From contig NC_014804.1 of the NCBI RefSeq assembly GCF_000151105.2, positions 1,848,567 to 1,912,566 of the forward strand: DNA of 64,000 nucleotides, in the 5' to 3' direction. Position numbers and translations under genes: made by a program. The notes beneath the pieces were generated by a model. That model was not told the DNA's origin and ran no database searches. It saw only the letters and a program-made list of their open reading frames with translations. Of the stretch, positions 7,975 to 17,075 are shown in pieces. The stretch is from Thermococcus barophilus MP. Its GTDB lineage: Archaea; Methanobacteriota_B; Thermococci; Thermococcales; Thermococcaceae. Every line of letters begins with the position of its first letter. Position 1 is the first letter of the stretch.

Positions 7975-8002
7975 TTAGGATAACATTTTTAGGGTGTGAG
8001 TT

Positions 8003-8013
8003 GCTTATTTAAA
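8003..8013 (+). promoter_or_regulatory. TATA-like element for aglB
   Basis: GCTTATTTAAA about 45 bases before the aglB ATG at 8056, with GGTGG as ribosome site at 8046-8050. A transcription start near 8033 would give a short leader. Judged only by match and spacing. Confidence 0.4.
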
Positions 8014-8055
8014 ACAGCAATTGGTATTACACCGATAATCTCAAGGTGGTACTTT

Positions 8056-10362
8056 ATGAAAAAGCTCGATAAGGTATTTGAGCCAAAAGTTGCACTGCCG
8101 TTGGTAACTTTGATTGCTGCAGTATTTAGATTGATCCCATTAAGGTATAAGTATCTGTTTGGATATGATCCCTACTTTCATTTGGCTTACATTGAGGAGA
8201 GCTTGAAAGCTGGGTATTGGTTAAATTTTTTGACAATTGCAGGCGGGCCTTGGGGGGTTCAGGTTAAAAACTTTCATCCGTTGGGACTATGGATGGTTCC
8301 TGCTGATGTTTATAAAATTTTGAAGATTTTTGGAGTTTCTCTTTACGATGCGTTCAGAATAACCCCAGTAATTTTTGGAGTTCTGACAATCATTTTCTTC
8401 TACCTGGCTATGCTCAACTTCTATGGAAAAAGAGAGGCTTTCTTTTCGGCACTTTTTCTTTCCGTAATGTTTGGACACGTTTTCAGGTCAATGGCAAACT
8501 ACTACAGGGGAGACAACTACATGCTCTTCTGGTATTCAGTTGCTCTATTTGGAGTTTCTTTAGCTCTGAAAAAAACTCGGAGAGCTTGGAGGTACAAGAG
8601 ATTTGCTTTTTATTTGATTCCAGCGTTTGCAAGTGGCTTGGCTGCAATATTCTGGCAGGCGTATTATCCGATTTTTATATTCCTGCTTGGAAATGCTGTC
8701 CTTTTAGCTTTTGGTGCTTTTATTTTGGAAAAGGACAAATATTTGGTTGATTCTGCAGTTTTGACTCTTTCAACAGCCTTTGGGGCTTTTTTGGCTAACT
8801 ATCTAGGTGAATACTTTGGATATGGAATGCTTGGAGGTAACAGATGGCTGGCTAAAAAGACTGCAGAAAAACTTGGAATAGAGCTGGGAGCAATTAAAGA
8901 TGTTTATCTTGCAGTTCATCTTAAATATCTGGTTCCCTTAGCTCTCGCTGGAATTTTTGCATTGTTTTTGCTCTCAAGAATTGTAAATGAGAAAAAGCAG
9001 AGAGCTTTAATAGTGCTCATACTTTCAATCCTCGGAGTTTTTGTGCTCTTCATGAGGTTTGATGCGCTTAAAGAGCTCTCCTCTGGATTTGGAATCTTTA
9101 GAGAAGCGCCTATTCTTGAAACCCAGCCTTCAACATTCAGCGACCTTTGGGCAGCTTATAATATTTTGGTGTTTTTGTGTCCGTTGTTTGTCCTCCGCTT
9201 TGTTCCAAAGAAAGTTAAGCTCTCCGATTTTGTCCTTTTGGGCGTCATTGCTCCGAGCCTCTATATGCTCTACACTTGGACTCGCTTTTTGTTCATAGGG
9301 TCTTTTGCTGTAGCGGCTATGGCTGGAGTTGGCTTAATTTGTCTCCATGATTTCTTAAAGCCGAAATTGGAGTCTAAAAAGGCCTTAGCCCTTTCAGTGT
9401 CTTTGCTTGTTGTAGTGCCTATAATAAGTGCCGGTCTGGGATTTGAGAGAGTTTACGCAGAAAGGCCAATAATAAATGATCGCTGGGTTCAGGCTTTAAC
9501 CTGGCTGAAGGACAACTCCAATGAAAATGACGTTGTCTTAGCTTGGTGGGATTATGGCCACTGGGTGACTTATTATGCAAGAAGGTCTCCTATTGTTCAG
9601 GGGGGACCAAGCAGATGGGTTGCTTTGTATTATCTGGGAAAAGTTAATAACAACCAGCTGATGGCCCGTGGAGTTGATTATGTCATTGTCTCCTATGACA
9701 CTGCCCTTAAGTTTGGGGCAATTTTGGATACAGCAAACATTTCGAGAGAAGGTTATTTCCTTATGATTTTACCATTGGTTTCGAAAGTGGGAGCGTTGAT
9801 ATTCCAGCAAGGGCAGTATACCATAACAGCAAGACCCGGAAAAGAATGGAGTATATTAATTAACACTGGAACTGCAGTGTTTTCTCCTAAAGAGGCTTTC
9901 GTGGAGTATAAAAACAGCATTACAAGGCTCAATATCACGGCAAAAAATACTGCTGATGCCTATGTTTATTTGAATTTGAACTACGGCTATGCTGTTTTGA
10001 TGAGTGAGAAAACCTTTAACACTACTTTAGCCAGGCTAATGTTCACGGATGAATATTCAAAAGATTATCAGCTTGTTTACTCTGATGGCGGCTACATCAA
10101 GATATTCAAGTTTAAACATCCCAATGTTGCAGTTGAGCAGACAGAAAAAGAGATAATATTCAAGTTTGAAAATGCTACTGGGACAGGTTTAGGTGTGTTT
10201 GGATATTTGGAGAACGGAACTTTGGTGTTTAAGAGATGGTATCCAGTGAAGGGCAAGAACGAGTTTATACTTCCGAAGGATCAGGTTAATGGAACTGTGA
10301 TAAGGTATGCTTATGCTGAAGGAAAGAAGATTGTTGATAGAGGAGTGTTTAGGAAAAGGTGA
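8056..10362 (+). CDS. aglB: oligosaccharyltransferase STT3/AglB, copy 1
   Basis: A 768-residue membrane enzyme that transfers a lipid-linked glycan to Asn in N-x-S/T sequons at the outer face of the membrane. Visible features: the first acidic motif GYDPYFHL (Asp at about 38), the second loop motif YRGDNYM, some 11-13 hydrophobic segments, and the catalytic WWDYGHW at about 497-503 opening a C-terminal soluble domain of about 270 residues. I chose ATG 8056 after AAGGTGG; a longer frame to 7996 adds 20 residues unlike the family. It is shorter than the long archaeal AglB form. The dTDP-rhamnose genes follow directly. Confidence 0.93.
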   Translation: MKKLDKVFEPKVALPLVTLIAAVFRLIPLRYKYLFGYDPYFHLAYIEESLKAGYWLNFLTIAGGPWGVQVKNFHPLGLWMVPADVYKILKIFGVSLYDAFRITPVIFGVLTIIFFYLAMLNFYGKREAFFSALFLSVMFGHVFRSMANYYRGDNYMLFWYSVALFGVSLALKKTRRAWRYKRFAFYLIPAFASGLAAIFWQAYYPIFIFLLGNAVLLAFGAFILEKDKYLVDSAVLTLSTAFGAFLANYLGEYFGYGMLGGNRWLAKKTAEKLGIELGAIKDVYLAVHLKYLVPLALAGIFALFLLSRIVNEKKQRALIVLILSILGVFVLFMRFDALKELSSGFGIFREAPILETQPSTFSDLWAAYNILVFLCPLFVLRFVPKKVKLSDFVLLGVIAPSLYMLYTWTRFLFIGSFAVAAMAGVGLICLHDFLKPKLESKKALALSVSLLVVVPIISAGLGFERVYAERPIINDRWVQALTWLKDNSNENDVVLAWWDYGHWVTYYARRSPIVQGGPSRWVALYYLGKVNNNQLMARGVDYVIVSYDTALKFGAILDTANISREGYFLMILPLVSKVGALIFQQGQYTITARPGKEWSILINTGTAVFSPKEAFVEYKNSITRLNITAKNTADAYVYLNLNYGYAVLMSEKTFNTTLARLMFTDEYSKDYQLVYSDGGYIKIFKFKHPNVAVEQTEKEIIFKFENATGTGLGVFGYLENGTLVFKRWYPVKGKNEFILPKDQVNGTVIRYAYAEGKKIVDRGVFRKR

Positions 10363-10405
10363 AGTTTTTAATGTTTTGTTAAAAATATAATACGGTGAAT
10401 TGGAG

Positions 10406-11464
10406 ATGAAGGCGTTAATACTTTCGGGTGGTCATGGGACAAGGCTTAGGCCTTTAACGTACTCCCAGCAGAAGCAGCTTATTCCAGTTGCAAACAAGCC
10501 TGTTCTGTTTTACGCTATTGAAGACGTTATTGAGGCAGGAATCCATGACATTGGAATTATCGTTGGGCCAAACGCTGAGCAGGTTAAGAAGACTGTTATG
10601 AGTGTTGACTGGGATGCTAACATTGAATTCATTTATCAAGGAGATCCCCTTGGATTGGCTCACGCAATAAAAGTCGCGAAGGATTATCTTGGTGATGATG
10701 ATTTTGTGATGTATCTTGGCGATAACATACTCAGGGAAGGTATTGTAAGGCATTTGGAGCACTTCAAAAAAGGGAACTTCGATGCAAGCATTTTATTGTG
10801 TGAAGTTCCAAATCCTCAGCAGTTTGGTGTGGCTGAGCTTAGCGAAGACGGAAAGACAATAAAACGCTTGGTTGAAAAGCCAAAAGTTCCTCCAAGCAAT
10901 CTGGCATTAGTGGGAATATATTTCTTCAAGCCGGTAATTCATGAAGCAGTGAAGCATTTAAAGCCATCTTGGCGTGGAGAGCTTGAAATTACAGATGCTA
11001 TACAGTGGCTAATTGATCACGGCTATAAAGTTGGCTGGACAAAGGTCACTGGCTGGTGGAAGGATACAGGAAAGCCCGAGGACATTTTGGACGCAAACAG
11101 ATTGATTTTGGATGACATTGAGAGGGACATAAGGATAAAAACAAGGGCAAAGATCATTGGGAGGGTAGTTATTGAGGAAGGGACTGAGATTGATGAGAAT
11201 ACCGTAATTAAGGGCCCAGCGATAATTGGAAAGAACTGTAAGATTAAAAATGCCTACATTGGACCTTACACGAGCATTGGAAACAACTGTATTATCGAGA
11301 ACACAGAAATTGAAGATTCAGTAATTTTAGAGGGGAGCGAGATCAGATGCGGTGGTAGAATAGTTGAAAGCTTAATCGGGAGAAATGTGAAGATTTTAGA
11401 GCAGAATAATCATCCAATTGGAAGAAGATTGATAATTGGAGACAATTCACAACTGACGCTTTGA
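10406..11464 (+). CDS. rfbA: glucose-1-phosphate thymidylyltransferase
   Basis: A 352-residue enzyme making dTDP-glucose from dTTP and glucose-1-phosphate, the first step to dTDP-L-rhamnose. The nucleotide-binding signature GGHGTRLRPLT is at residues 8-18, followed by the KQLIPVANKPVL lysine region. From about residue 245 there is a left-handed beta-helix of hexapeptide-like repeats (IIGRVVIEEGTEIDENTVI), as in the long archaeal and actinobacterial forms. ATG 10406 is preferred over TTG 10400, with GGTGA at 10394. The next gene starts 9 bases after the stop. Confidence 0.93.
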   Translation: MKALILSGGHGTRLRPLTYSQQKQLIPVANKPVLFYAIEDVIEAGIHDIGIIVGPNAEQVKKTVMSVDWDANIEFIYQGDPLGLAHAIKVAKDYLGDDDFVMYLGDNILREGIVRHLEHFKKGNFDASILLCEVPNPQQFGVAELSEDGKTIKRLVEKPKVPPSNLALVGIYFFKPVIHEAVKHLKPSWRGELEITDAIQWLIDHGYKVGWTKVTGWWKDTGKPEDILDANRLILDDIERDIRIKTRAKIIGRVVIEEGTEIDENTVIKGPAIIGKNCKIKNAYIGPYTSIGNNCIIENTEIEDSVILEGSEIRCGGRIVESLIGRNVKILEQNNHPIGRRLIIGDNSQLTL

Positions 11465-11473
11465 GGTGAAAGC

Positions 11474-13564
11474 ATGAGAGTATTAGTCACAGGAGGCGCT
11501 GGCTTCATAGGGAGCAATTTCATACGCTATATCTTAGAGAAGCACAAAGACTGGGAAGTGATAAATTTAGACAAGCTTGGCTATGGTTCAAAGCTGGCAA
11601 ATTTGAAAGATATCGAAAATGATCCACGGTACACTTTTGTTAAAGGGGATATAAACGATTTTGAGCTTGTTAAGGGGATTATAAAGAAGGTTGACGCTGT
11701 CGTGAACTTCGCTGCAGAGAGTGTTGCGGAAAATGAGTTTGTGGCAATTCATAGGCATGGTAGAATTAGACTTGTTACTTTTGGAGAGTTATTTGAAGAG
11801 CTTAGCAAGACTAACAAAGTAATAAGAGATGGGAAACATGAGATAATTGATGTTTCAGGAAAAAATATCAAGGTGTTGTCATTTTATAACGGTTATGGGG
11901 CATGGTTTCCCCTGAAGAAGATTATCCGACATTACTATAAAGGAAAGCTTATTTGCTTACGTCAAAAATGGGGAGAAATTTATGTTACTCCAAATCACTC
12001 TGTGTATGATGTGTTTGGGAATCTTGTTAGTGCAGAATCAAATCCTGAGCTTTTGGCAATTAGGAGGATAAACTATTATCCCCACGAACATAAGTTCAAG
12101 AGCCCTATCTCAACTCGTGCTGAGAGAAATGGACACTTAAGAGTAACTCTTGACAAAGTGTACACTGGGAAGAAACTAGAGGCACTCCTAAGACTGCTCG
12201 CTGCTTATATTTCAGAGGGAAACGCAACTTACAACAAGGCAAATGGGTCATATTCCGTAGTTATAAACAACAGAGACAGAGACTGGCTGGAACTATTGGC
12301 TGAAGATTATATGCTAATTTCGAATGGCTCATATTCCATTACAAAACGAAAGGATAGTGTTTATCAGTTGGAACTAAAGAGCAAAGAATTTTATCAAATG
12401 TGTACAGACCTATGTGGCAAGAATGCTCCGGAAAAAAGACTTCCAGATTTTGTTTATGGGTTAGATAGGAAATACCAGATTATGTTCTGGGAAACGCTAT
12501 TGAAGGGAGACGGAACATACAGAAAGTGGTCAAGGGACAAAACAGCTGAATACACAACTGTCTCAAGAAGATTAGCGGCAGGTTTGGGTTTGCTCTTGGC
12601 GTTGATGGGTATTGACTACACCTACTATATAAGTAAACCAAGAAGAGGGAACTACACCTCCTACACGATTAGAACAAGGCTGTTTTATAATGTATCCACT
12701 GGAAAGAGAGAATTAATTGAGGTTGAGTACGAGGGTTATGTATATGACTTAGAAGTTGAGAAGTCTCATAATTTCATCGCCGGTGTTGGCAATATAGTGG
12801 CCCACAACACTCATGTGGATAGAAGCATTTCAAACCCTTATGCATTTATTGAGAGCAATGTTCTGGGTGTTTACACTATTCTGGAGGCGATTAGGAAGTA
12901 CAATCCGGAAGTTCGCTTGGTTCACGTGGGCACAGATGAGGTATACGGAGATATAATTGAAGGTTCCTTCACTGAGGAAGATAGGCTAATGCCCTCCTCT
13001 CCATATTCAGCAAGCAAAGCCGCTGGAGATATGCTGGTTTTAGGCTACGCGAGAACTTACAACCTGAATGCTTCGATAACAAGGTGTACCAACAACTACG
13101 GCCCTTATCAGTTCCCTGAAAAGCTCATTCCAAAAACAATAATCAGAGCAAGTATGGGTTTGAAGATACCAATTTATGGAACTGGTCAAAATGTTAGGGA
13201 CTGGTTATATGTTACAGATCACTGTGAGGCGGTTGAGCTTGTTTTGGAGAAAGGTGAGAAGAGAGAAGTTTACAATATCTCAGCTGGAGAAGAGAAGACC
13301 AACCTTGAAGTCGTGAAGACTATATTAAAGCTCATGGGTAAGGATGAGGACTTGATAGAGTTCGTCGAGGACAGGCCAGGGCATGATTTAAGGTACAGCC
13401 TTGACTCAACTAAGATTAGGGAACAACTTGGCTGGAAGCCGAAGCACAACTTCAAGGAGGGAATCAAAAAGACAGTTGAGTGGTATCTGAGCAATGAATG
13501 GTGGTGGAGACCTTTAGTTGATGAAAAAGTCCTCCATCCAACGCCGTGGAAGCTGAGGTGGTAG
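11474..13564 (+). CDS. rfbB: dTDP-glucose 4,6-dehydratase with intein
   Basis: A 696-residue precursor. The exteins (residues 1-82 and 446-696, 333 in all) form a normal-length SDR dehydratase converting dTDP-glucose to the 4-keto-6-deoxy sugar. Seen are the NAD-binding GGAGFIGSN at 7-15, HVGTDEVYGD, the catalytic YSASK (SPYSASKAAGD) and the RDWLYVTDHCEA region. An intein splits the conserved AAESHVDRS motif after AAE. Splicing would give AAETHVDRS, so Ser becomes Thr at the junction. GGTGA at 11464 precedes the ATG. It is the second gene of the rfb set. Confidence 0.95.
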   Translation: MRVLVTGGAGFIGSNFIRYILEKHKDWEVINLDKLGYGSKLANLKDIENDPRYTFVKGDINDFELVKGIIKKVDAVVNFAAESVAENEFVAIHRHGRIRLVTFGELFEELSKTNKVIRDGKHEIIDVSGKNIKVLSFYNGYGAWFPLKKIIRHYYKGKLICLRQKWGEIYVTPNHSVYDVFGNLVSAESNPELLAIRRINYYPHEHKFKSPISTRAERNGHLRVTLDKVYTGKKLEALLRLLAAYISEGNATYNKANGSYSVVINNRDRDWLELLAEDYMLISNGSYSITKRKDSVYQLELKSKEFYQMCTDLCGKNAPEKRLPDFVYGLDRKYQIMFWETLLKGDGTYRKWSRDKTAEYTTVSRRLAAGLGLLLALMGIDYTYYISKPRRGNYTSYTIRTRLFYNVSTGKRELIEVEYEGYVYDLEVEKSHNFIAGVGNIVAHNTHVDRSISNPYAFIESNVLGVYTILEAIRKYNPEVRLVHVGTDEVYGDIIEGSFTEEDRLMPSSPYSASKAAGDMLVLGYARTYNLNASITRCTNNYGPYQFPEKLIPKTIIRASMGLKIPIYGTGQNVRDWLYVTDHCEAVELVLEKGEKREVYNISAGEEKTNLEVVKTILKLMGKDEDLIEFVEDRPGHDLRYSLDSTKIREQLGWKPKHNFKEGIKKTVEWYLSNEWWWRPLVDEKVLHPTPWKLRW
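11720..12808 (+). mobile_element. intein (LAGLIDADG type) in RfbB
   Basis: A 363-residue in-frame insertion. It starts at a Ser (SVAENEFVAIHRHGRIRL), has the block B TxxH motif (VTPNHSVYD), and carries two LAGLIDADG-type endonuclease motifs, LLAAYISEG and LLKGDGTY. It ends with block F (YDLEVEKSHNFIAG) and block G NIVAHN. The residue after the terminal Asn is Thr. Splicing would thus use Ser1, His-Asn and Thr+1. Both acidic residues of the endonuclease motifs are recognisable (Glu in the first, Asp in the second), so homing activity is possible. The intein-free site would lie in the conserved NAD-domain motif. Confidence 0.93.
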
Positions 13565-13802: not shown

Positions 13803-13983
13803 AATTATCGTTCCTGACAATGTAAAAAAGAGAAAAGTTGGTAAAAAGATAAAGGAGTACATTGAAGCTGTTAAAGCCGCAGAGAGGCTGAACAAACTTC
13901 TCGATGAGGTGGATCTGGATGAAATCGAAAAAGAAGTCGAGGACTTCAGGAAAAAGTTCAAGTTCAGAAGTTCTTCTCATTGA
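13783..13983 (+). CDS. antitoxin-like protein
   Basis: A 66-residue protein, MKNLKVEIIVPDNVKKRKVG followed by a long charged helix (LDEVDLDEIEKEVEDFRKKF). The strand KVEIIVPDNV is like the opening of the antitoxin at 15561. I chose ATG 13783 (after GGAAGGGA) over the upstream in-frame codon at 13765. The PIN reading frame overlaps its 3' end, the normal antitoxin-to-toxin arrangement. Confidence 0.65.
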   Translation: MKNLKVEIIVPDNVKKRKVGKKIKEYIEAVKAAERLNKLLDEVDLDEIEKEVEDFRKKFKFRSSSH

Positions 13984-14278
13984 CACCTCAGTTTTAATTG
14001 ACCACTTCAAAAAGAGGACACATTTAGAGGGCGAAGAAAGGCGTAAAGCGTTTCTCAGGGAGCTGCGGAAGCTGTTTAAAATAGAAGAGATTGATGATCT
14101 TGTTGTTTTAACTTACTGTAAGTTATACCGAGCCTTGAAGCGTAATGGCGAGCTGATTGAAGATGCTGATCTTTTGATTGCCGCTACTGCAATCGCCAAA
14201 GGTTATACTTTGTGGACTAGAAACATAAAGCACTTTGAACGTTTAGAAAAGTTTGGTTTAAGACTTTTTAAAGGGTAA
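13919..14278 (+). CDS. PIN-domain toxin, apparently shortened
   Basis: PIN motifs are clear at both ends: EVLLIDTSVLIDHFKKR and EDADLLIAATAIAKGYTLWT then RNIKHFERL. The central region with the second acidic residue (usually an xTxxEL-like helix) is not visible: DHFKKRTHLEG runs into LRELRKLFKIEE. No standard start codon sits directly at the family N-terminus. The frame is open from ATG 13904 and ATG 13919, but those codons give non-family sequence. It may be a defective toxin with an internal deletion, or it may use a rare start near 13967. Confidence 0.6.
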   Translation: MKSKKKSRTSGKSSSSEVLLIDTSVLIDHFKKRTHLEGEERRKAFLRELRKLFKIEEIDDLVVLTYCKLYRALKRNGELIEDADLLIAATAIAKGYTLWTRNIKHFERLEKFGLRLFKG

Positions 14279-14288
14279 GGTGGTAGCA

Positions 14289-14846
14289 ATGCCTTTCGAG
14301 TTCAAAAGGTTGGAAATCCCAGATGTGATTTTGATAAAGCCCAAGGTCTTTGAGGATGAGAGAGGCTTTTTCATGGAGACCTACAAAAAGCCTGACTTTG
14401 AAAAAGCTGGAATAAAAGGAGAGTTTGTTCAGGATAATCATTCAAAGTCTAAATATGGAGTTCTTAGAGGATTGCACTTTCAGAAAGAGCCCTATGCCCA
14501 AGCAAAGATAGTGAGATGTATACGAGGAGTTATCTATGATGTAGCCGTCGATTTAAGGAAGAACTCCCCAACTTTTGGAAAATATGTTGGAGTTATTCTA
14601 TCCGAGTATAATAAGTACATGCTCTACATTCCAAGGGGCTTTGCTCATGGGTTTGTTGTGCTGAGTGATGTTGCTGAAGTTGTGTATAAAGTGGACAACG
14701 TTTATGCGCCTGATTATGAAGGGGGCTTAATTTGGAATGATCCTGATGTAAACATTCAGTGGCCAGTTGAAAATCCAGTAGTTTCAGAGAAGGATAAAAG
14801 ATGGCCAACTTTAAAAGAGTTAATTGAAAAAGATGAGCTGTTTTAG
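14289..14846 (+). CDS. rfbC: dTDP-4-dehydrorhamnose 3,5-epimerase
   Basis: A 185-residue cupin-type epimerase acting third in dTDP-L-rhamnose synthesis. Seen are the IKPKVFEDERGFFMETY N-terminus, QDNHSKSKYGVLRGLHFQ with the catalytic His, VRCIRGVIYDVAVDLR, and IPRGFAHGFVVLSD. The length is typical. ATG 14289 follows AAGGTGG and is preferred over GTG 14280. It is separated from rfbB by the inserted small genes and PIN gene, and from rfbD by two further modules. Confidence 0.94.
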   Translation: MPFEFKRLEIPDVILIKPKVFEDERGFFMETYKKPDFEKAGIKGEFVQDNHSKSKYGVLRGLHFQKEPYAQAKIVRCIRGVIYDVAVDLRKNSPTFGKYVGVILSEYNKYMLYIPRGFAHGFVVLSDVAEVVYKVDNVYAPDYEGGLIWNDPDVNIQWPVENPVVSEKDKRWPTLKELIEKDELF

Positions 14847-15758: not shown

Positions 15759-16227
15759 GTTCTTCATTGACAGCAATGTTATACTGAACTATTTTTATGG
15801 GGATGAGAATGCGAGAGAAATAATAGAGATTGCAGAAAGTATTGGTGAGATTTTCATAAATGGAATTGTTTTAACTGAAGTTTCAATAAGATACGTGAAG
15901 GACAAAACTGGTGAGAAGAGCTACACTTTGAAGCACAAACCGGAACTCGTTAAAAACGTTGATAAAAGTCCGCTTTATGCAGTTCTCGGCAAGTTTTTGT
16001 ATCTTCCAGATAATGTGCTTATTGGAGAAGATGCAGTAACATTAATGGATATTTACGGTATTCTGCCCAATGATGCTATAATCCTAGCAACCTGCAAGTT
16101 TTACGGGATCAAGTACTTGATATCATTTGACAGTGACTTCAGAGAGGCATGTGAGAAAGAAGGAATTACTCTCATTGAAAGCAAAGAAAAGCTGAATGAA
16201 ATTATCAAATCTGGTGGCTCAAAATGA
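15739..16227 (+). CDS. PIN-domain toxin
   Basis: A 162-residue PIN protein: FRFFIDSNVILNYFYGDENA, the central INGIVLTEVSIRY, then GILPNDAIILATCKFYGIKY and LISFDSDF. All the acidic positions are present. It is a paralogue of the toxin at 30671-31180. ATG 15739 is chosen, 20 bases inside the antitoxin. Its TGA overlaps the ATG of rfbD (ATGA at 16224), so toxin and rhamnose reductase are translationally coupled. Confidence 0.83.
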   Translation: MTSGKFRFFIDSNVILNYFYGDENAREIIEIAESIGEIFINGIVLTEVSIRYVKDKTGEKSYTLKHKPELVKNVDKSPLYAVLGKFLYLPDNVLIGEDAVTLMDIYGILPNDAIILATCKFYGIKYLISFDSDFREACEKEGITLIESKEKLNEIIKSGGSK

Positions 16228-17075
16228 GGGTTGCAGTAATCGGAGCAAATGGTCAACTGGGGACAGATTTGGTTGAAGTCTTTGGGGAAGAAGCAATCCC
16301 TTTGACCCATAAAGACTTAGATGTTACTGATTTTGGGAGCTTGAAGATTTTGAAGGAGCTTAAGCCCGATGTGATAATTAATACAGCAGCTTATGTTAGG
16401 GTTGATGATGCAGAGCTTTACCCGGAAAAAGCATTTCAAGTTAATGCAATTGGAGCTTTAAACGTTGCAAAAATAGCCAACGAAATTGATGCCGTTAATG
16501 TTTACATCAGCACAGATTACGTTTTTGATGGAACTAAAGGAAAGCCTTACATCGAGGAGGATGTTCCAAATCCAATAAATGTTTACGGGCTGAGCAAATA
16601 TGCTGGTGAAATTTTCACTAAAAACTATTCTGGGAGATATTATATCATCAGGGTTGCGAGTTTGTATGGAAAGGCGGGAGCGAGCGGAAAAGGCGGAAAC
16701 TTCGTTGAGTTTATGATTCAAAAGGCCAAGAAGGGAGAGAATATCAGGGTTGTTAAGGATATGTTTATGAGCCCCACCTATACTAAAGATGTCGCCAGAA
16801 CATTGAAGAAGTTCTTGGAGCTAAAGCCAGAGTTTGGAGTCTATCACATGGTGAATGAGGGATATTGTAGCTGGTATGAATTTACGAGGGCGATATTTGA
16901 GATTTTAGGCTGGGAGGTTGGGGTGAAGCCTATAAAGTCAAGTGAGCTGAAAAGATTAGCAAAGAGACCACAGCTTTCGGCGTTAAGGAATGAAAAACTG
17001 GAAAAGCTTGGTTTGAAAATGAGGCATTGGAGAGAAGCTTTGGGAGAGTATTTAAAGGAGAAGGGATATCTCTAG
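16224..17075 (+). CDS. rfbD: dTDP-4-dehydrorhamnose reductase
   Basis: A 283-residue SDR enzyme that reduces dTDP-4-keto-L-rhamnose to dTDP-L-rhamnose. Seen are the GANGQLG cofactor motif at 8-14, INTAAYVRVDDAE, STDYVFDG, the catalytic NVYGLSKYAGE (YxxxK) and RVASLYGK. Length is normal. It is the last of the four rfb genes and starts within the stop of a PIN toxin gene. Confidence 0.94.
   Translation: MRVAVIGANGQLGTDLVEVFGEEAIPLTHKDLDVTDFGSLKILKELKPDVIINTAAYVRVDDAELYPEKAFQVNAIGALNVAKIANEIDAVNVYISTDYVFDGTKGKPYIEEDVPNPINVYGLSKYAGEIFTKNYSGRYYIIRVASLYGKAGASGKGGNFVEFMIQKAKKGENIRVVKDMFMSPTYTKDVARTLKKFLELKPEFGVYHMVNEGYCSWYEFTRAIFEILGWEVGVKPIKSSELKRLAKRPQLSALRNEKLEKLGLKMRHWREALGEYLKEKGYL

Follow-up and report, generated by a model that had tools for sequence, protein, structure and literature searches.

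Class 1 inteins are defined by a set of residues (PMC4031507), and those that combine Ser1 with Ser+1 or Thr+1 form an established subgroup of 58 InBase inteins in 16 alleles, whose signature is an NX-motif histidine preceded by Arg or Lys (PMC10189870). The TFIIB intein is cited as being of this Ser1/Ser+1(Thr+1) type (PMC10189870). LAGLIDADG homing usually converts the DNA flanking the insertion site, and a precedent for co-conversion of the +1 residue itself is the haloarchaeal MCM-d intein, for which most empty sites carry Pro and occupied sites carry Ser (PMC10643990).

Here we analyse an intein at one site (site a) of the RfbB gene in a 64,000-nucleotide stretch of the Thermococcus barophilus MP genome (NC_014804.1, positions 1,848,567 to 1,912,566; hereafter the window). 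Its best match, both by sequence (E 2.3e-25) and by fold (E 1.1e-21), is the Pol-2-type DNA polymerase intein PI-PkoII (PDB 2cw7), with which it has in common the HN terminus, the RH (NX) motif and a LAGLIDADG domain with Glu/Asp, and whose relatives at loci L007, L009 and L011 likewise start with Ser1. PI-PkoII differs in its 538-aa form, its host gene and its Ser+1, and the aligned Pol-2-type inteins are only 31–33% identical to the RfbB-a intein. The polymerase intein at YAD/TDG (L007 7762-8928, 389 aa) resembles RfbB-a in combining Ser1 with Thr+1 and in having an endonuclease-bearing size, but its Thr belongs to the polymerase YADTDG motif and its identity to RfbB-a is 28%. The TFIIB mini-inteins (5o9i, 5o9j) match RfbB-a in sequence and in their class 1 splicing domain, but they lack an endonuclease and occupy another host gene. 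As in haloarchaeal MCM-d, for which co-conversion is the published explanation (PMC10643990), the +1 residue of RfbB-a differs between occupied and empty sites. Whereas the Pro to Ser change in MCM-d is required for any splicing, the difference at RfbB-a is Ser to Thr, both of which are chemically able.

The host open reading frame (11474-13564, plus strand, as are all window features with coordinates in double-dot form below) encodes 696 aa that read VVNFAAE/SVAENEFV...GNIVAHN/THVDRSISNP across the two junctions. The model TIGR01181, which matches it in two parts (516.9 bits, the cut-off being 365.1; E 1.8e-155), identifies it as the dTDP-glucose 4,6-dehydratase RfbB/RmlB. The N-extein (11474..11719, 82 aa) ends in NFAAE and comprises the NAD-binding Rossmann part, while the C-extein (12809..13564 including the stop codon, 251 aa) starts with THVDRSIS, is covered by TIGR01181 and has a homologue in 2hun. 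Between them lies the 363-aa intein (11720..12808), which matches the Pfam models Intein_splicing (PF14890, E 1.9e-11) and LAGLIDADG_3 (PF14528, E 2.5e-8) and the NCBIfam intein N-terminal and C-terminal domain models (TIGR01445 and TIGR01443), all above curated cut-offs. Taking its 363 codons out leaves 333 aa, and 37 Thermococcales RfbB genes are natural alleles that lack exactly this stretch in frame, and such alleles align across the N-extein. The preliminary description had placed a 363-residue intein with Ser1 and Thr+1 at this position, and its boundaries are borne out by the reading frame, the intein models and the empty alleles.

The gene is preceded by an RfbA-like glucose-1-phosphate nucleotidyltransferase (10400..11464, PF00483) and followed by the dTDP-4-dehydrorhamnose 3,5-epimerase RfbC (14280..14846, PF00908) and the dTDP-4-dehydrorhamnose reductase RfbD (16224..17075, PF04321), and the locus is therefore a rhamnose-nucleotide gene group. 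A PIN-domain protein lies between RfbB and RfbC (13904-14278); its counterpart beside the intein-bearing RfbB of another Thermococcus genome, G089 (L052 14185-14616), is 19 aa longer internally, so that part of the window copy may have been deleted. Elsewhere in the window, a large protein at 44283-46271 matches the oligosaccharyltransferase STT3, and another at 7996-10362 appears STT3-like by eye (WWDYGHW motif).

We aligned the intein with the four other same-site copies described below and with more distant inteins. Ser1 (codon AGT, 11720..11722), the first splicing nucleophile, is invariant in the five copies, as is His71 in the sequence IRHYY (11930..11932) together with the Arg70 before it; this pair corresponds to the NX-motif signature of the Ser1/Ser+1(Thr+1) subgroup introduced above (PMC10189870). 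Block B, TPNH (Thr90 and His93, 11987..11998), is invariant in the five copies and in the more distant inteins. Blocks F and G, VYDLEVEKSHNFIAGVGNIVAHN (12740..12808, TIGR01443), contain Asp343, His362 and Asn363, which are invariant across eight aligned inteins, and Asn363 is followed by Thr+1 (codon ACT, 12809..12811) as the first C-extein residue. The window copy therefore has the full class 1 set of Ser1, TxxH, block F Asp, penultimate His, terminal Asn and Thr+1. It also has both LAGLIDADG motifs with their acidic residues: motif 1, LLAAYISEG (residues 159-167, 12194..12220), with its catalytic Glu kept in the four Thermococcales copies, and motif 2, LLKGDG (residues 260-265, 12497..12514, PF14528), with its catalytic Asp kept in all five. 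Lys239 is placed between the two motifs. An AlphaFold model of the intein (mean pLDDT 80.7, pTM 0.84; weak at residues 121-146, 269-272 and 321-327) gave Foldseek matches to inteins at probability 1.00, consistent with a HINT fold; the best were the intein-endonuclease structures 2cw7, 7qsu, 7qss, 7qst and 1dq3, with TliVMA and PI-PfuI among them. Judged by these features, the insert is a class 1 intein of ordinary kind, LAGLIDADG homing endonuclease domain included. Ser1 in place of the usual Cys, remarked on earlier, is indeed present but is not unusual in itself, because it falls in the described subgroup noted above, whose marker histidine it carries.

Searching RfbB homologues for insertions at the same position, as had been proposed, revealed the intein in four of 94 Thermococcales genomes, namely the window genome (G000) and three others that bring the total to three genera. 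The copy in G089 is 96% identical to the window copy and those in G022 and G009, from other genera, are 86% identical. A fifth copy, 77% identical, occupies the same site on a contig of a Nitrososphaeria metagenome-assembled genome (MAG; JALTTZ010000057.1, L006 6001-7092). RfbB or a weaker paralogue was found at 1e-40 in 59 of the 94 genomes, and extending the search from order to phylum gave no further carriers. A phage or plasmid origin of the intein was considered and rejected, as no relative of it was found in the viral contigs, phage records and plasmid records searched. On the Nitrososphaeria contig the rfb genes are arranged in an order of their own, and the RfbB encoded there shares only 66–68% identity with Thermococcales RfbBs, so that contamination from a Thermococcales genome seems unlikely. 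The presence of so similar an insert in this MAG suggests transfer between archaeal phyla. In this copy the sequence of LAGLIDADG motif 1 is AAYISVG: Val has taken the place of the catalytic Glu while the splicing residues are intact, which suggests that its endonuclease is dead. We also note that G089 has two rfb gene groups, one with the intein-bearing RfbB (L052 11758-13845) and one with an intein-free RfbB (L053 9258-10259); the latter sits on a 22-kb contig, and a mixed assembly is possible. The literature that we searched, a sample thin on subscription papers, contained no mention of an RfbB/RmlB intein of these archaea. The site a intein may be a new allele; catalogues could list it, the carriers including single-contig genomes.

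We compared the history of the intein with that of its host gene, the latter represented by a tree of 71 RfbB exteins. Five changes in the presence of the intein are needed on this tree, and all five are forced by well-supported branches. Each of the ten carrier pairs shows higher identity between inteins than between exteins; G000 and G022, for example, share 86.2% in the intein and 81.1% in the extein, and the window copy and the Nitrososphaeria copy 76.9% and 67.6%. For the two carriers from one genus (G000/G089), dS is 0.226 for the intein and 0.842 for the extein. The lower divergence of inteins than of host genes in all ten pairs, together with the five changes on the tree, leads us to conclude that the intein moves horizontally, a spread that can be read from the sequences as directly as the structure of the element; this points to movement more recent than the divergence of the host genes. 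Vertical inheritance in the Thermococcales with many losses, the empty Ser alleles being reversions, is very improbable on the same evidence and also because Ser is found in the empty genes closest to each Thermococcales carrier, even if one intein-free gene with Thr (ASETHVDRS in G074) could be a scar of such a loss. The scattered, sparse distribution, with close relatives that lack the intein, speaks for a mobile element also where regulation is concerned: that the intein is conditional and regulates the supply of rhamnose, for instance by temperature, seems extremely improbable, despite the environment-coupled splicing proposed for the RadA intein of P. horikoshii, likewise a member of the Thermococcales (PMC5790916).

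Between G000 and G089 the intein as a whole has a dN/dS of about 0.09, and its splicing and endonuclease regions, at about 0.07–0.11, are both under purifying selection. A dead or splicing-defective intein would leave an inactive 696-aa RfbB, since a motif of the NAD domain is interrupted, and in the Nitrososphaeria copy one catalytic endonuclease residue is gone (Glu to Val). That reading is scarcely credible, as splicing residues and reading frames are intact in all five copies and the extein sits on a short branch and is under purifying selection. No second RfbB above 1e-40 was found in the window genome; given this and the constrained extein, the enzyme is presumably made in this organism and hence spliced.

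We therefore favor, with high confidence, a class 1 endonuclease-bearing intein at AAE/[S>T]HVDRS that is predicted to splice, to home and to co-convert the +1 codon. For the splicing activity, the DNA cleavage and the co-conversion step, we infer the following course. Ser1 of the precursor would undergo an N-O acyl shift, the resulting ester would be attacked by Thr+1 and Asn363 would cyclise, joining the 82-aa and 251-aa exteins into a 333-aa RfbB that reads AAETHVDRS. The LAGLIDADG domain would act as a homing endonuclease by cleaving rfbB genes that lack the intein, and repair on an intein-bearing copy would both insert the intein and co-convert flanking DNA, the +1 codon included. Ser-type host genes would thus turn Thr upon invasion, because the co-converted DNA takes in that codon.

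The distribution of the +1 residue bears on this last step. Intein-free Thermococcales RfbB genes have Ser+1 (AAESHVDRS) in 36 of 37 cases, the exception being G074, while all five intein-bearing genes, four from Thermococcales and one from the MAG, have Thr+1. Among the empty genes, those closest to the Thermococcales carriers encode Ser, whereas L144, the one closest to the MAG gene, encodes Thr natively. Beyond the order, Thr occupies the site in 54 of 108 other RfbB homologues; sampled genomes of the MAG's class have 20 Ser and 9 Thr, and viral contigs 34 Ser and 45 Thr. The claim in the preliminary description that Thr replaces a conserved Ser thus holds within the Thermococcales but not across the family, where Thr cannot be called unusual. 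A requirement for Ser was likewise entertained, since all five solved-structure alignments shown have it, yet the 54 homologues with Thr argue against it. As both residues are common in distant homologues, the spliced AAETHVDRS enzyme should be active.

In comparisons of independent pairs, Thr went the same way as the intein in three to four of five and the opposite way in none (sign test p 0.125, five pairs being too few to reach 0.05). Within 20 codons of the site, the excess similarity of the carriers to one another ranked second of 297 windows, at a scale picked after looking and with weaker results for other window sizes. Such a window-size-dependent signal is suggestive at most, and a clear co-conversion tract in the flanking codons was not accepted. 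This weak tract would also fit if Thr+1 had instead arisen by point mutation after each invasion, without co-conversion, under selection for better splicing with Thr than with Ser. The Ser and Thr codons are one base apart here and the carriers' Thr codons differ (ACT, ACC and ACA), which also fits; the intein itself would stand in either case. We consider point mutation unlikely, because on the tree the same change would have to arise independently about four times, following an invasion in each case, no carrier with Ser+1 was found, and flanking DNA is normally converted in LAGLIDADG homing (PMC10643990).

Returning to co-conversion, we tentatively suggest, as a reasonable possibility, that the intein and its Thr+1 codon are one moving unit. 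The intein would work well only with Thr, so that each homing event would rewrite a conserved residue of the NAD motif and leave a lasting Ser to Thr mark that can outlive loss of the intein, of which G074 may be a scar. It is possible that the intein had first become adapted, outside the Thermococcales, to an RfbB of the Thr type and then brought Thr along. The intein-free RfbB of G074 (L019 1492-2499) is altered at both of the intein sites found in this gene, reading ASETHVDRS and HISSDEVHG, and its ACACATGTCGA flank is that of the Nitrososphaeria carrier. Its sites are possibly a scar of intein loss or homing-resistant.

The second of these sites, site b, lies in the RfbB catalytic motif at HIS/TDEVYG, where two other Thermococcales genomes, G069 (L043 781-3306, plus strand) and G053 (L044 3-2447, minus strand), have a different intein of 505–506 aa. 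It resembles RfbB-a in host gene, in the Ser1/Thr+1 combination and in its endonuclease-bearing size, but its +1 residue is the native Thr of the motif and the two inteins are about 26% identical over part of their length. A further genome, G011 (L045 1052-1904, minus strand), contains a broken RfbB whose 5' part is missing; it retains part of the site b intein, and its C-extein is frameshifted. With this second intein RfbB is a two-site intein host.

The list of intein hosts is dominated by DNA-metabolism genes. RfbB, an enzyme of sugar-nucleotide metabolism, now joins it with two separate sites, each within a conserved motif of the NAD domain or active site. The clean contrast between empty Ser sites and occupied Thr sites provides a natural test of whether inteins bring their own +1 nucleophile along, in hosts that are hyperthermophiles and of which many can be cultivated.
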